From positions 1 to 46,154 of the forward strand of contig OMZM01000012.1 in the NCBI GenBank assembly GCA_900315545.1: a stretch of DNA of 46,154 nt. The letters are read 5' to 3'. Every line of letters starts with the position of its first letter. Position 1 is the first letter of the stretch. This DNA is from an uncultured Prevotella sp. (GTDB taxonomy: Bacteria > Bacteroidota > Bacteroidia > Bacteroidales > Bacteroidaceae). The notes under the pieces were generated by a model. It was not told where the DNA came from and did not search any database. It was given only the letters and a program-made list of their open reading frames with translations. A program made the position numbers and the translations under genes. Below are positions 12,505-46,154 of this stretch, in pieces.

Positions 12505-12626
12505 GTTTTTTCATTGTTTTCTATATATAATGTGTGTTTATAAGCAATTTATTTGTCTTTTCAGCACGATTTTCCATTCTTACGGAGTTGATTTTTTGAG
12601 TAACAGTCCCAGTTTTTTCCAACGCA

Positions 12627-13075
12627 CAGCAAAAAGTGTGCCAAACTCGCACGAATTTTCTTTCGACCTGAAAAAGTATGAAAATTTTTGACAGAGAAAA
12701 ATCGTTCAAATAGAAACGGAACAACACCTGGAATTGCAAATTTGTGTTAATTTTCAAACCGTCGATAACTGTTAAAATTGTCAAAGAGTACCTTTGGCGT
12801 GCCTGTATCGCCATTTTTACCATGCAAAACATTGTGCCCGACACCCTCATACACTATGTTTTACATCCTCAAACAGTGTGTTTGACATTCTCAAACATAC
12901 TCTTTGACAATTTTAACACATGAGTTTTATTCATAAATGCCTTGTGTTTGATATTAACAGCTTGACAATCAGAAGATTATGGATGAAAGCGAATTTTTGG
13001 CGTATTTTGCCTCTTTGATTTTCAAAACGACTTTCGAGGGCACTCACGCGACACTAAAAGAGCCAAAATTGATTA
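12627..13075 (+). repeat. Composite intergenic repeat, copy A (22-bp-phased palindrome array)
   Basis: The block is 449 bases. It aligns along its whole length with 33691-34140 (450 bases) and in reverse with 45783-46154. Landmarks in order: CAGCAAAAA; GAAAAAGTATGAAAA then TTTTTGACAGAGAAAAA; a 147-bp core (12771-12917) bounded by inverted repeats GTTAAAATTGTCAAAGAGTA and TACTCTTTGACAATTTTAAC; GCTGACAATCAG-like; TTTCGAGGGCACTCACGCGA; and the end CAAAATTGATTA. In the core, CAnACA...TGTTT units recur at 12848, 12870, 12892 and 12914, exactly 22 bases apart. It fills most of the 790-base gap between nqrA and the DUF4375 gene. Nothing else is seen there apart from the two promoters. Confidence 0.85.
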
Positions 13076-13184
13076 GCATAAATTTTGAGAACATGACAGT
13101 ACGTGCTCTATTATACATATTAATAAAACTGCAATTTTATTGTATGTTTTTCCTTTTATAGTAATTTATTTGGAAAAAAATATC

Positions 13185-22753: not shown

Positions 22754-23941
22754 ATGTTTAGATTCTTAAGGATTGTATTTTTAATACTGTGTTCGGCGTT
22801 TCTCGTTTTGCCGCCTTCTGTGGCTCAGAAGAAGATTGTTCTGCAAGCCAAACAATACATAAAGTCGGGAAAAGACTTTGACAAGGCGGAAAGGCTTATG
22901 CTGGAGTTGCTCAGCGACAGCAATTCCTTAGACAATCAGATAAAATACAGACTTATTCTTATCGATGCCTTGCGCGCTCAGTATGAGCAGGGAAACGAAC
23001 GCCTGTATCTGAAACAAAAGTATGATACGGCGGCATTGTTTGTTACAACAAAGAAAATCTTTGACAATTTCAATGTTGTTGACTCTATTGCGATGAATTT
23101 AAACATGAAACACCGATACAAGGAGAAGAATATAAATTTCTTGCTGAAGCTGCTGCCTAATTTATACAACGGCGGTTCCTATTATGTAACAAAGAACAAG
23201 TTTGCAGAGGCATTCGGTTTCTATAGTCAGTTTATAGATACGTCGGAAGAGCCATTATTCTATAATAAAGATAATGAAGGAAAGGTTCACAGGGCTGCAT
23301 CGATGGCAGTGTATTGCGGCTATAAGATAAACGATTTCGATAAACTTATGGAATACAAATCGCTTGCTCTGAAGGATACATCTCAGTTGGCATTTGTATA
23401 TCAGTATATGGCGGAAGGGTATAAGCAGATTGGCGACACATTAAACTATATTGACATCATAAAAAAGGGATTTGATGAATTTACTTCATTTCCGTTCTTT
23501 TTCCCACGACTGATAGAGTATTATAACGGTTTGGAACGCTATGACGAATCACTCAAATATATCAACAAGGCATTAGCCTGCGACAGTACAAATGTTGTCT
23601 ATCGTTTTGCGAAAAGCACGGTTATGCTTAATACGGGACGATACGATGAATGCATAAAACTCAGCCAAGACCTAATTGCGGAGAGCGATACTCTGGCGGA
23701 GGCATACTACAATCTGGGTGTGTCATACTATAACCAGGCAATAGAACTTGATAAGGTTTACCAGCGTTCGACCAAGAACAAGAAACGAATAAGGGAGTTA
23801 TACGAAATGAGTCGTCCGAGCATTGAGCGTTTCAGGCTCCTGGCGCCTGACCAGAAAGACAAATGGATGCCGCTACTGTACACAATTTACCTCAATCTCA
23901 ACATGGGAAAAGAATTTGACGAAATAAACAGAATAAGATAA
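22754..23941 (+). CDS. Exported TPR-repeat protein, third paralogue
   Basis: This 395-residue protein has signal peptide MFRFLRIVFLILCSAFLVLPPSVAQ. It contains clear TPR-like units, such as GLERYDESLKYINKALACDSTNVVYRFAKSTVMLNTGRYDECIKLSQDLIAESDTLAEAYYNLGVSYYNQA in consecutive helices. The end RPSIERFRLLAPDQKDKWMPLLYTIYLNLNMG matches the end of the other two paralogues in layout. It lacks the strong KPQY/KPRF block but has MKHRYKEKNINFLLKLLPNL at the same place. It is 12 bases after the second paralogue, in one operon. Probably periplasmic; function unknown. Confidence 0.83.
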   Translation: MFRFLRIVFLILCSAFLVLPPSVAQKKIVLQAKQYIKSGKDFDKAERLMLELLSDSNSLDNQIKYRLILIDALRAQYEQGNERLYLKQKYDTAALFVTTKKIFDNFNVVDSIAMNLNMKHRYKEKNINFLLKLLPNLYNGGSYYVTKNKFAEAFGFYSQFIDTSEEPLFYNKDNEGKVHRAASMAVYCGYKINDFDKLMEYKSLALKDTSQLAFVYQYMAEGYKQIGDTLNYIDIIKKGFDEFTSFPFFFPRLIEYYNGLERYDESLKYINKALACDSTNVVYRFAKSTVMLNTGRYDECIKLSQDLIAESDTLAEAYYNLGVSYYNQAIELDKVYQRSTKNKKRIRELYEMSRPSIERFRLLAPDQKDKWMPLLYTIYLNLNMGKEFDEINRIR

Positions 23942-24056
23942 TGTGCCTGCGGAATGATGCCGGCAAAGTGGATGGGACATGATGGATACAGCATGATTGC
24001 TTTGTGGATAAAATTACGGAGTGAAAATCATTTTACAAACCACCTCTGTAATCGGT

Positions 24057-24166
24057 TTACAAGTGCTCTGTCATAACGTTACAGACTATCTGTCACAGCG
24101 TTACGGAGTATCTGTCACAAAATTACAAGTAATTTGTAATAATCTTGCAGATAATTATCCACAAGA
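24057..24166. repeat. 22-bp-period degenerate tandem array (copy D)
   Basis: The motif TTAC recurs at 24057, 24079, 24101 and 24123, and TTGC at 24145, each exactly 22 bases on. Units read TTACAGACTATCTGTCACAG, TTACGGAGTATCTGTCACAA and TTACAAGTAATTTGTAATAA. The half-dyad ACAnnnTATCTGT resembles ACACTATGTTT of the other repeat cores. Two irregular units precede at 24014 and 24033. This fills the 324-base gap between the third TPR gene and the helicase gene, and no other feature is seen there. Confidence 0.72.
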
Positions 24167-24265: not shown

Positions 24266-25588
24266 ATGATAGACATTGAGAATATAAAAACCAAACTGCA
24301 CATAGAGCAACTTAGCCGAATGCAGAAAGACTCTGTAGATGCAATTTTGCATTCAAGAAAAGACGTCATTATACTTTCGCCTACAGGAAGCGGAAAGACA
24401 TTGGCATACCTGTTGCCAATCATACAACTGATAAATACGGAAACAGATGCTCTTCAGGTCGTTGTCATCGTGCCGGGACGTGAACTGGCATTGCAGTCGT
24501 CGACGGTCTTGCAAGACATGAAATGCGGCGTGCGCTCACTGAGCCTATATGGAGGCAGGCCGGCAATGGAGGAACACAGGCAGATAAAGAAGGTAAATCC
24601 ACATATCGTATTTGCAACACCAGGCAGACTAAACGACCATATAGACAAGAACAATATATCGGTAAAGGCTATAAAATATGTAGTCCTGGACGAGTTCGAC
24701 AAGTGTCTGGAAATGGGCTTTCAGAATGAAATGAACCGACTGTTTGCACGCCTGAAATATATTCAGCGCCGCATCTTGTTGTCTGCAACACGCTCGGAAC
24801 AGATACCAGACTTTGTCAATATGTCGCAATCAGTCGTTGTTGACTACTCGAAAAACGAGGAGCAAGTGCCTGAGCGTATTTCCCTGAATGTAGTAAAAAG
24901 CGACGAAAAAGACAAACTTCCATGCCTTGTTAATCTGCTGCGCTCATTTGGCAGTGGCAGCACAATAGTTTTCCTAAACTTCAGGGACAGTGTTGAGCGA
25001 GTGGCATTAGGACTGCTGGAAGCAGGCTTCATCGTGAGTCGCTTTCACGGAGGCATGTCGCAGCCAGACAGAGAGATGTCGCTGTTTTTGTTCTCAAACG
25101 GTTCGACGAATATATTGGTATCTACCGACTTGGGCTCTCGTGGTCTTGATATACCGGAAGTAGACAATATCGTTCACTATCACCTGCCTGTGAACGAAGA
25201 AGCATACATCCATAGGGTGGGGCGTTCCGCTCGCTGGGCAGCCAAAGGCAACAGTTTCATTATACTAAACGGCGAAGAGCATCTGCCCGAATACTTGGAA
25301 AGTGCCCCCGACGAATATGTCCTGCCGCAGAATCTGCCGACAGCCATACTTCCCAAAATGACAACAGTATATATAGGAAAGGGAAAGAAAGACAAGGTAA
25401 GCAAGGGAGACATAGTCGGTTTTCTCTGCAAGAAGGGGGGCATGCCTTTGGACATGATAGGCAAGATAGAAGTCAGGGAGCGATATGCATACGTCGCAGT
25501 AAACAGAAAAAAGGTAGCCGACATGCTGAGGAAAATACAGAACGAGAAGATAAAAGGAATGAAAACAGTTGTCGAATTATTAAAGTAA
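24266..25588 (+). CDS. DEAD-box RNA helicase, DbpA-like
   Basis: This 440-residue ATP-dependent RNA helicase is probably involved in ribosome assembly. Motif I is SPTGSGKT (K44). PGRELALQ and ATPGRL follow. Motif II is DEFD (142-145) instead of DEAD. Motif III is SAT (173-175). Motifs V and VI are VSTDLGSRGLDIPEV and HRVGRSAR. The C-terminal about 80 residues (AILPKMTTVYIGKGKKDKVSKGDIVGFLCKKGGM...) look like the DbpA RNA-binding domain that targets hairpin 92 of 23S rRNA. ATG at 24266 follows a region with a 22-bp tandem array. It stands alone between intergenic gaps on both sides. Confidence 0.9.
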   Translation: MIDIENIKTKLHIEQLSRMQKDSVDAILHSRKDVIILSPTGSGKTLAYLLPIIQLINTETDALQVVVIVPGRELALQSSTVLQDMKCGVRSLSLYGGRPAMEEHRQIKKVNPHIVFATPGRLNDHIDKNNISVKAIKYVVLDEFDKCLEMGFQNEMNRLFARLKYIQRRILLSATRSEQIPDFVNMSQSVVVDYSKNEEQVPERISLNVVKSDEKDKLPCLVNLLRSFGSGSTIVFLNFRDSVERVALGLLEAGFIVSRFHGGMSQPDREMSLFLFSNGSTNILVSTDLGSRGLDIPEVDNIVHYHLPVNEEAYIHRVGRSARWAAKGNSFIILNGEEHLPEYLESAPDEYVLPQNLPTAILPKMTTVYIGKGKKDKVSKGDIVGFLCKKGGMPLDMIGKIEVRERYAYVAVNRKKVADMLRKIQNEKIKGMKTVVELLK

Positions 25589-32996: not shown

Positions 32997-33662
32997 ATGC
33001 AAGTAGTCTACGAAGATAATCACATTATTATAGTATCTAAACAGAGTGGAGAAATCGTTCAGGGCGACAAGACTGGCGATACTCCACTCTTGGATATTGT
33101 AAAACAATATATCAAGGAGAAATACCATAAGCCGGGCAATGTATTTCTCGGACTTGTACATCGTTTAGACCGCCCCGTTGCCGGTCTTGTTGTCTTTGCC
33201 CGGACATCTAAGGCTCTGACGCGTCTGAACGACATGTTCCGTAATGGCGAGGTGCATAAGACTTATTGGGCTATCACGCAGGCACCTCCTGCCGACACGG
33301 AGGGCGAAATAGACAGTTGGCTTGTACGCAATGAGCGTCAGAACAAGAGCTATTCCTATCCTAATGAGCGCAACGGAGCTAAGCATGCCATACTGCGCTA
33401 CCGACAGATAGGCAGGTCTGACCGATACACGTTGCTCGAAGTCAATCTGCTGACAGGCAGACACCATCAGATACGCTGCCAGTTGGCATCGATAGGATGC
33501 CCTATAAAAGGCGACCTGAAGTATGGAGCACGTCGCAGCAACCCCGATGGCAGCATCTCGCTGTTGGCTCGCCGAGTGAGTTTCATACACCCCGTAAGCC
33601 ATGAGCAGATAGACGTGGAGGCACCGTTGCCTGCCGACCGTCTGTGGCAGTCGTTTAAGTAA
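32997..33662 (+). CDS. RluA-family pseudouridine synthase
   Basis: This 221-residue enzyme isomerises uridine to pseudouridine in rRNA or tRNA. The catalytic Asp is D58 in GLVHRLDRPVAGLVVFART. RHHQIRCQLASIGCPIKGDLKYG is the second family block. It lacks the N-terminal S4 domain of RluC/RluD, so it is a compact RluA- or TruC-like form; the target base cannot be told. It is 53 bases after fabG. Confidence 0.94.
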   Translation: MQVVYEDNHIIIVSKQSGEIVQGDKTGDTPLLDIVKQYIKEKYHKPGNVFLGLVHRLDRPVAGLVVFARTSKALTRLNDMFRNGEVHKTYWAITQAPPADTEGEIDSWLVRNERQNKSYSYPNERNGAKHAILRYRQIGRSDRYTLLEVNLLTGRHHQIRCQLASIGCPIKGDLKYGARRSNPDGSISLLARRVSFIHPVSHEQIDVEAPLPADRLWQSFK

Positions 33663-33690
33663 TGCTCATGAAGCAGACGGAAAGCAATCA

Positions 33691-34140
33691 CAGCAAAAAC
33701 CGTGCCAAACTCTACAAATTTTTCTTGCGAGCCGAAAAAGTATGAAAAATTTTGACAGAGAAAAAGTCTCCAAATAGAATTTTTATAGCCCATAGAATTG
33801 CAAAAATCTGTTAAATTTAATTCCAAATATAATTGTTAAAATTGTCAAAGAGTATCTTTGATGCGTCTATTTCGCCGATTTAGGCTCACTAAACATAATG
33901 TCTGAATGCCCCAAACACTATGTTTGGCATCCTCAAAGAGTGTGTTTGACAATCTCAAACATGCTCTTTGACAATTTTAACATATATAATTAGTGCACAT
34001 AAGGCATATATTATGAGGTAACAAGCTGACAATCAGGTGATTGCAAATGAATGCGAATTTTGGGCGTTTTTTGCTCCTTTGATTTCTGAAACGGGTTTCG
34101 AGGGCACTCACGCGACAGTAAACGACCCCAAAATTGATTA
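33691..34140 (+). repeat. Composite intergenic repeat, copy B (22-bp-phased palindrome array)
   Basis: This 450-base block is collinear with 12627-13075. The core at 33835-33981 (147 bp) is bounded by GTTAAAATTGTCAAAGAGTA and its near-inverse (TGCTCTTTGACAATTTTAAC). Inside, TAAACA (33890), CAAACA (33912), CAAAGA (33934), CAAACA (33956) and TAACAT (33978) follow one another at exactly 22 bases. Each of the middle units reads CAAACAnnnTGTTTG-like. The right part has TTTCGAGGGCACTCACGCGAC, one base longer than allowed to quote as a single block, ending at ACCCCAAAATTGATTA. It fills the 680-base gap between rluA and tamB; the remaining 200 bases hold only a weak promoter. Confidence 0.87.
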
Positions 34141-34268
34141 TAGTTTTTTGATGCAGAATACAGAGAATTGTCATGGAAAAGTATGCCTGAAAATGCTAAA
34201 GAATTACGATAGGAACTTTTGTGTTTTAATTATATTGTCTTAAAATCGTCCACGTTTTGCCATATTTC

Positions 34269-45743: not shown

Positions 45744-45782
45744 AATAATTGTTTCAGGCACCATTTTGCAGAATAAAAACAC

Positions 45783-46154
45783 TAATCAATTTTTGCCCGT
45801 TTACCCTCGCGAGAATGCCCGCGAAAGTCGTTTCCGAAATCTGAGGGGCAAAAATCGCCCGTATTTCGCGTTTTGCTGTAATCGTCTGACAGTCAGTTTG
45901 TTATCTTGAAATATGTTGAATTTATGCAAGAAACAGATATGTTAAAATTGTCAAAGAGTATGTTTGACATTGTCAAACACACTGTTTGAGGATGCCAAAC
46001 ATAGTGTTTGGGACTCTCAGACACAAAGTTTCGCAAGCCAAAATACGCAAATAAGCGCCTCAAACATACTCTTTGACAATTTTAACACTTATCGCCGACC
46101 TCAGAATTAACACAATTTTGCACTTTCAGAGGCTATTCCGCATCTATTTGGAGA
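45783..46154 (-). repeat. Composite intergenic repeat, copy C (reverse, cut by window end)
   Basis: Read on the minus strand it matches copies A and B: TCTCCAAATAGA at the window edge, core 45941-46086 (146 bp) bounded by the same 20-bp inverted repeat (here both arms perfect), then TTTCGCGGGCATTCTCGCGA, and CAAAAATTGATTAG at the end. The units with CAAACA...TGTTTG recur at 22-base spacing. It fills the 411-base stretch after the second TamB gene. Part of the repeat lies outside the window. Confidence 0.85.

Follow-up and report, generated by a model that had tools for sequence, protein, structure and literature searches.

Helically phased arrays of short dyads lie between the genes of an uncultured Prevotella species at even distances along the parts of its chromosome that we examined. 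The reading that we consider best, with a confidence just short of even, is that they are protein-binding arrays serving as evenly spaced chromosome-organising sites. Established for the arrays are the 22-bp phase, the dyads, the intergenic position, the even spacing, species-specific sequence dialects, mosaic copies, and conserved arms that show no pairing covariation. The preliminary description of the whole 46,154-nucleotide stretch analysed here (the window) had reported a core of about 147 bp in three copies. That observation is confirmed as real and is part of a larger pattern, with three further features: a sharp-ended unit of about 460 bp around the core, a fourth array with another core class, and the even spacing.

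The core, the 460-bp unit and a second core class

The window contains the following features:

33688-34149, + strand: copy B of the dispersed element, about 460 bp, covering positions 5-465 of 470 in an nhmmer model built from 32 copies
33834-33982, + strand: core of copy B, 149 bp, TGTTAAAATTG...CAATTTTAACA, read from the sequence, with the arms as its most conserved part
33834-33861, + strand: left arm of the core inverted repeat, 28 bp, from sequence and column diversity
33955-33982, - strand: right arm, 28 bp, with one mismatch inside the 20-bp part
33883-33983, + strand: phased dyad array of the CAAACA/TGTTTG class, self-identity 32/44 at period 22, with no peak at periods 20, 21, 23 and 24
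12623-13079, + strand: copy A of the element, core 12770-12918, period-22 peak of 34/44 at 12822
45773-46153, - strand: copy C, truncated by the contig end, core 45940-46087, period-22 peak of 33/44
24047-24149, + strand: fourth array, of the second core class, with TTACA/TGTAA dyads and without the 460-bp flanks, period-22 peak of 32/44

Read directly, the bounding inverted repeats run from GTTAAAATTGTCAAAGAGTA at 33835 to its inverse ending at 33981, where copy B has one mismatch (TGCTCTTTG in place of TACTCTTTG), and the lengths of 147, 147 and 146 bp given earlier for the three cores are correct. The 22-base steps reported for copy B also hold, with half-sites TAAACA at 33890, CAAACA at 33912, CAAAGA at 33934, CAAACA at 33956 and a weak TAACAT at 33978. 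The claim that each unit is itself a near-palindrome stands for the clean dyad CAAACACTATGTTTG at 33912; the remaining dyads are imperfect. The core ends are TGT...ACA. Across the window, where the periods tried were 22 plus 20, 21, 23 and 24, all four self-identity peaks at 27/44 or above are at period 22. The A/T autocorrelation of the arrays in the window genome (G000) is 0.30 at lag 10, 0.20-0.25 at lag 12 and negative (-0.26) at lag 11, as A/T steps alternate between 10 and 12 bp.

A 21-base arm pattern (one N, up to three mismatches) matches the window six times, compared with 0.01 times on average in shuffles, and the whole genome 140+137 times, compared with 0+4 for the reversed pattern. 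Together with the 60+75 matches of a right-end pattern, these counts indicate about 135-140 copies of the element in G000, a 2.29-Mb draft of 56 contigs, 92% complete, in which the window lies on contig C24. We analysed 129 copies, drawn from the arm-pattern matches, the right-end-pattern matches and 40 scored similarity matches; because they were taken among the matches listed, well-conserved copies are over-represented. The loci examined cover 241 of the 277 arm-pattern matches and 121 of the 135 right-end matches. In 95 aligned full-length copies, similarity drops sharply at both ends of a 460-bp unit, and mean column diversity, about 0.7 outside the unit, falls to 0.27-0.28 within its flanks and to 0.05 within the arms. 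Since similarity continues for about 140-160 bp past the arms, these are not the ends of the unit.

Terminal branches make up 82-83% of the length of the trees, and changes on them amount to 1.4-1.6 per arm column, compared with 7.9-8.6 per flank column. These figures are for the 89 of 94 copies that are independent of the arm pattern, on which the constraint test was repeated and came out the same. Private substitutions are absent from the left arm, number seven in 21 columns of the right arm and run at 0.31-0.38 per column in the flanks, so that the right arm per column is not below the left flank and is near the right one. A second allele is present in at least 15 of 94 copies at 164 of 451 columns (75 of the 164 being transversions). 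Linkage between columns decays with distance, r2 being 0.25 at 1-3 bp and 0.02-0.03 past 25 bp, and the four-gamete fraction is at least 0.96 past 3 bp; the copies are either short-tract mosaics or saturated. One aberrant copy, C34_46943, was excluded from the private-substitution, constraint and mosaic tests and included in the covariation test.

Eight copies have the outer flanks of the element but a TTACA/TGTAA core, likewise in 22-bp phase. Six further arrays of this second class stand alone, lacking the flanks (C17 22557, 38720, 140911 and 164136; C18 51054; window 24047-24149), and all six are intergenic. The window array lies between a gene ending at 23941 and a co-directional gene starting at 24266, and matches the class profile with an E value of 1.7e-23, the array itself being included in that profile; those at C17 22557, 140911 and 164136 match at 3e-14 or better a profile built without them.

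Spacing along the chromosome

The four arrays of the window are 11.2, 9.8 and 12.0 kb apart, figures that depend on counting in the second-class array at 24047-24149. Over 426 kb of C17, C18 and the window, both classes together give 35 arrays and, with C17:83381, C18:185088 and a fragment at 146485 on C17 omitted, 32 centre-to-centre gaps, all of at least 6.03 kb, with a mean of 12.1 kb and a coefficient of variation (CV) of 0.40. Twenty-eight gaps fall within 6-16 kb and four exceed 16 kb, the largest being 29 kb. Random placement at transcription-unit boundaries gave a CV of 0.90+-0.14, with none of 50,000 placements as even as observed, and on average 12.5 gaps shorter than 6 kb (minimum 3), against an observed count of zero.

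None of the six standalone second-class arrays comes closer than 6.03 kb to a 460-bp copy (P=0.0013): four fall where neighbouring 460-bp copies are 18-39 kb apart, a fifth where they are 15.6 kb apart, and the sixth lies past the last copy on C17. Two unrelated core classes thus obey one common spacing. The 129 element copies alone give 84 within-contig gaps (end to start), with a mean of 14.1 kb and a CV of 0.59; two of these are shorter than 5.7 kb, one where a fragment lies next to a full copy and one of 3.5 kb near an irregular copy on C19. C17:83381 and C18:185088 are intergenic period-22 arrays of other sequence that violate the 6-kb exclusion; when they were added, before three of the second-class arrays were known, three gaps were shorter than 6 kb and the CV was 0.45.

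Arrays in other species of the genus

Among 399 genomes of the genus, with the best two candidates per genome considered, a full-length copy of the element was found in G000 only. Genome G005 has a 166-bp left part and three further genomes have matches of 34-61 bp. The G005 fragment (C7, L040, 9858-10023) reaches as far as the left arm and gives way to unrelated DNA, after which an IS3-type integrase-like region can be seen by eye.

A two-unit lattice pattern occurs in 47 of 200 genus genomes, with 362 matches in G000, 107 in G187, 53 in G144 and 40 in G212. The reversed control has none in most genus genomes, 29 in G118 and 23 in G203; its 5 to 29 matches in G118, G203, G120, G129, G172 and G006 may represent another 22-bp dialect (AAACT...GTTT). 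An exact three-unit lattice identified 28 stretches in named genomes, 24 of them titled Prevotella or Prevotellaceae (ten from a single genome, UBA3288) and the remainder Bacteroidales, Odoribacter, Jeotgalibacillus and Treponema.

In a 400-kb stretch of G187, the arrays consist of AAACATATATGTTT and CAAAGTTnAACTTTG dyads and are intergenic in 22 of 22 cases tested. Fourteen of 20 gaps are within 5.5-10.5 kb, against 18% expected (0 of 20,000), and none is below 5.5 kb (P=0.001); the test used 21 of the 24 listed places, dropping 288464 (a single dyad), 467040 (unphased) and 494514 (the second half of an apparently insertion-split array), and left out the third-dialect arrays of the same stretch. 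A generic CAAA/TTTG lattice finds 10-13 clusters in this stretch and the species-specific dyads 24 places; by self-identity alone, period 22 is not outstanding there, with 8 peaks against up to 6 elsewhere. In the split array (G187:C1 490839 and 494514, L208), the two halves appear by eye to be separated by roughly 3.6 kb of inserted DNA whose ends are inverse near CCCAAGTTTAAC. Thirteen G000 genes next to the element have a match in the G187 stretch; three of these are array-adjacent there, and about two would be expected by chance if up to 44 of 297 G187 genes are array-adjacent, which makes conservation of array positions unconvincing.

Genome G144 has at least 49 array places, and its spacing looks even: the smallest of 24 gaps among the matches listed is 16.97 kb, with rows of one array merged by hand and C3:55269, of different sequence, omitted. 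We also scanned blindly 200 kb of one long contig each from G016 and G146, which had 0 and 1 lattice matches beforehand. With periods from 16 to 32 tried at 30/44 self-identity, all nine arrays detected in G016 have period 22; G146 has 16 arrays of that period and 0-1 of any other. Their units are unrelated in sequence (TAACTTGACGCAAGTTA and CAAAAGCTAAG), and a two-unit G146 pattern, allowing two mismatches, occurs in one of 120 genus genomes, G146 lying outside the 120. The A/T autocorrelation at lag 11 is 0.34 in G016 and 0.25 in G146, against a null of about -0.03+-0.05. With peaks less than 1 kb apart merged, spacing is even in G016 (13 arrays, CV 0.41, P=0.0008 versus uniform placement) and not significantly so in G146 (20 arrays, CV 0.75, P=0.16), where the smallest gap, 2.1 kb, is nevertheless above chance (P=0.013). 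By test, spacing is even in two of three other species (G187 and G016, not G146).

Loci of gyrA and related genes from other Bacteroidales families (30 loci, 24 genomes, 147 kb) contain no period-22 array at 29/44, and those of the genus (30 loci, 164 kb) contain three, against up to two at other periods, a contrast that is small and proves little alone. A palindromic flank motif like TGTAAtc..TGA...TCA....GTTACA seems, by eye, to be shared near G000, G187 and G144 arrays.

Proposed role and alternative readings

The preliminary description proposed a cooperative binding array or nucleoid organiser, to be doubted if genome-wide copies lost the 22-bp phase or the dyads. Both are kept among the copies, and the phase is kept also in the other core class and in other species. 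A fixed 22-bp lattice, dyads and A/T phasing of about one turn, retained despite the change of letters, suggest a conserved geometry that would place proteins on one face of bent or wrapped DNA, and even spacing common to two sequence classes suggests a shared chromosomal role. Together these favour chromosome-organising arrays, a role that the even spacing also fits, and the earlier proposal is partly supported. Against an organising role, the 460-bp unit has abrupt ends that resemble those of an insertion, and array positions are not clearly conserved between species.

We suggest that the arrays form an intergenic nucleoprotein class, probably genus-wide, each array setting its half-sites two helical turns (22 bp) apart over about 100-150 bp, with an A/T-rich step every 10-12 bp. 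A DNA-binding protein would line its dimers up along one face, or a single wrapping protein would cover it, and the array DNA would be bent or wrapped. Set between transcription units once per 10-12 kb, the arrays might act as evenly placed organising points, with candidate roles as supercoil-domain boundaries, gyrase or condensin stations, or nucleation sites for nucleoid proteins; gyrase is one candidate binder. Sequence exchange may keep the species dialect uniform among copies, and the dialect probably co-evolves with the binder. More specifically, we tentatively propose, as a plausible possibility, that the arrays act as a Prevotella ruler. Phased, dyad-rich arrays about every 10 kb would bind or wrap a candidate protein and set domains, with geometry conserved in the genus, letters replaced between species and at least two dialects sharing one spacing per genome. 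The observations suggest an undescribed mode of chromosome organisation.

Several known systems share some of these features. Like the REP/BIME sequences of E. coli (BIME-2), mosaics of 20-40-bp intergenic palindromes, the arrays are dispersed, intergenic, palindromic and mosaic; unlike them, they have an exact 22-bp lattice, a unit of about 460 bp, a minimum spacing of about 6 kb and unrelated classes with one geometry. They also differ from RAYT-linked REP sequences, as a search for the Y1 transposase family (PF01797) gave no match in G000, a 92% complete draft, with 5 of 14 control genomes positive. A passage on BIME-2 reports enrichment in gyrase cleavage sites and a 130-bp gyrase motif with 10.75-bp periodic composition (PMC6379681), which the core of about 149 bp with its 10-12-bp A/T phasing resembles. 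For CdbA of Myxococcus xanthus, the passage concerned describes more than 500 chromosomal sites with an intergenic excess, each a direct repeat with four-bp separation, together with DNA bending and a small effect on transcription (PMC7156744); both systems have many intergenic sites, here in the form of evenly spaced phased arrays of about 100 bp. CRISPR arrays were ruled out by eye, as the units abut each 22 bp, with at most about 5-7 variable bases and no spacers of CRISPR length. We found no description of such arrays in the open-access literature, most subscription journals and all bioRxiv preprints being outside the search, and the source passages on BIME-2 and gyrase, BOX, BrickBuilt, P. 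gingivalis repeats, Mu immunity, CdbA and a REP survey mention no evenly spaced 22-bp arrays or dialects. On this literature and on the features that set the arrays apart from known families, they would appear to be categorically new.

The main alternative, which we consider unlikely although serious, is a MITE- or BOX-like mobile repeat, non-autonomous and mobilised in trans, with its copies spaced by target immunity and the 22-bp sites bound by the transposase. Transposase sites of Mu and Tn7 are 22 bp long, and Mu- and Tn7-like ends have their sites at the element termini and a 5-bp target duplication. The present lattice agrees in site length; it differs in that target duplication is lacking, the arms lie off the unit ends and two classes avoid each other. 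For Mu, exclusion over kilobases is also alike, and gives the hard-core spacing a precedent, cis-immunity being described in a passage on it as most intense around 5 kb and weakening out to 25 kb (PMC7350765). A mobile repeat would further agree with the discrete, sharp-ended unit, the lack of clear positional conservation between species, the TGT...ACA core ends, and private substitutions that are roughly uniform across the unit, the left arm excepted. The element is also MITE-like in being non-coding and dispersed in many copies, as none of the 129 lies inside a called gene (called with a codon-usage script written for this analysis).

Other properties speak against a mobile repeat. The outer ends, CTCCnGCAAAAA... 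and ...AAAATTGATTA, are not inverse by eye, the inverted arms being internal to the unit, and we detected no target-site duplication over 16 x 22 offsets and lengths of 2-10 in up to 94 copies; the best excess, 2 of 93 against 0.1 expected, is unremarkable given about 3,000 trials. A MITE bearing both of these features was accordingly set aside. Identity above 95% to another copy occurs in none of the 125 testable copies (those of the 129 for which a partner could be compared across more than 250 bp); the median nearest-neighbour identity is 86% and the best 94%. Ten copies adjoin contig ends (on C2, C5, C8 twice, C14, C17, C18, C22, C24 and C50), so identical copies could hide in assembly breaks, and nearly identical ones may be absent from an assembly broken inside the element. 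Plasmid and phage collections gave no match to the element, and a single viral-contig match was discarded for want of a profile match. The failure to find a Y1 transposase in G000 and the constraint on the arms in terminal branches also speak against mobility, and the spacing shared by the second core class is not easily explained by it.

Two further repeat families share some features with the arrays. BOX of Streptococcus pneumoniae is likewise a modular non-coding repeat, with a variable number of inner modules; in the passage describing it, BOX, RUP and SPRITE are often clustered and inserted into each other (PMC3049150), unlike the present arrays, which exclude one another. The BrickBuilt MITE of Porphyromonas gingivalis is, like the element, an intergenic Bacteroidales sequence holding short repeats, given in its source passage as 23-nt tandem repeats between a leader and a tail, with 19 copies in ATCC 33277 and terminal inverted repeats that the authors compare with ISPg elements (PMC4596501). 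The element differs in having about 137 copies, 22-bp dyads and no outer inverted repeats.

An RNA with several hairpins had been raised as the alternative to a binding array. We regard a structured RNA, or a terminator or mRNA-stability element, with a transcribed core, a long stem and inner hairpins, as improbable. This reading draws on strong folding of the core relative to shuffles (z -7.6 to -9.6 in four folds), on a slight covariation excess at two inner dyads (3 versus 0.5 and 2 versus 0.1 cells), and on some other-species arrays that, by eye, come after terminator-like sequences. The covariation check across copies, proposed earlier for the dyads, otherwise failed to find any: over the 28 arm pairs, the paired fraction is 0.936 against 0.937 when shuffled and double-change cells number 4 against 4.0, and at arm position 9 T and A vary independently on the two sides (61 TA, 20 AA, 11 TT, 3 AT). 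Arms that do not covary as base pairs make an RNA stem unlikely. Rfam gave nothing above the gathering score in the window except a tRNA, its seven sub-threshold matches at 33650-34200 being all far under their gathering scores. Between tandem genes the element has no orientation bias (22 copies with and 27 against the genes); a count of 13 versus 3 in a first small set, made by hand on crude gene calls, became 26 versus 28 and 22 versus 27 in the full set, and the preference was dropped. An RNA would also leave the even spacing unaccounted for, and this reading is disfavoured.

We think it equally doubtful that the arrays are operators of a global transcription regulator at promoters. Their dyads and intergenic location would suit such sites, and of the 112 copies with called genes on both sides 39 lie between divergent genes, against 35 of 354 background pairs. 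Convergent pairs, however, are enriched too (24 of 112 versus 34 of 354), the other copies lying between tandem genes (49, versus 285 in the background). A regulon predicts neither a 6-kb minimum nor one site per roughly 12 kb regardless of genes, and the second-class arrays share the spacing. Least probable of all are tags for DNA uptake or recombination, maintained in species dialects by transformation-driven exchange: species-specific dialects, of the kind that the uptake sequences of Neisseria and Pasteurellaceae also have, even spacing and mosaic copies would fit, but known uptake sequences are far shorter and commoner than these arrays.

If the arrays do set chromosome domains, they would be a bacterial case of evenly positioned, sequence-encoded architecture sites with fast-changing letters and fixed geometry, recognisable in a major genus of gut and rumen without data other than sequence. 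What sets bacterial domain size, and how a whole set of sites changes its letters jointly, would then become testable questions. If they are mobile instead, target immunity would have left a striking imprint on a chromosome. The arrays could also be put to practical use as species tags for metagenome binning and for detecting transferred DNA. A 116-kb stretch of G187 in which the usual arrays were not found contains period-22 arrays of a third dialect, with TACATGTCGACATGTA dyads (G187:C1 513726-525582; L209, L210), and these may mark DNA acquired from another species.
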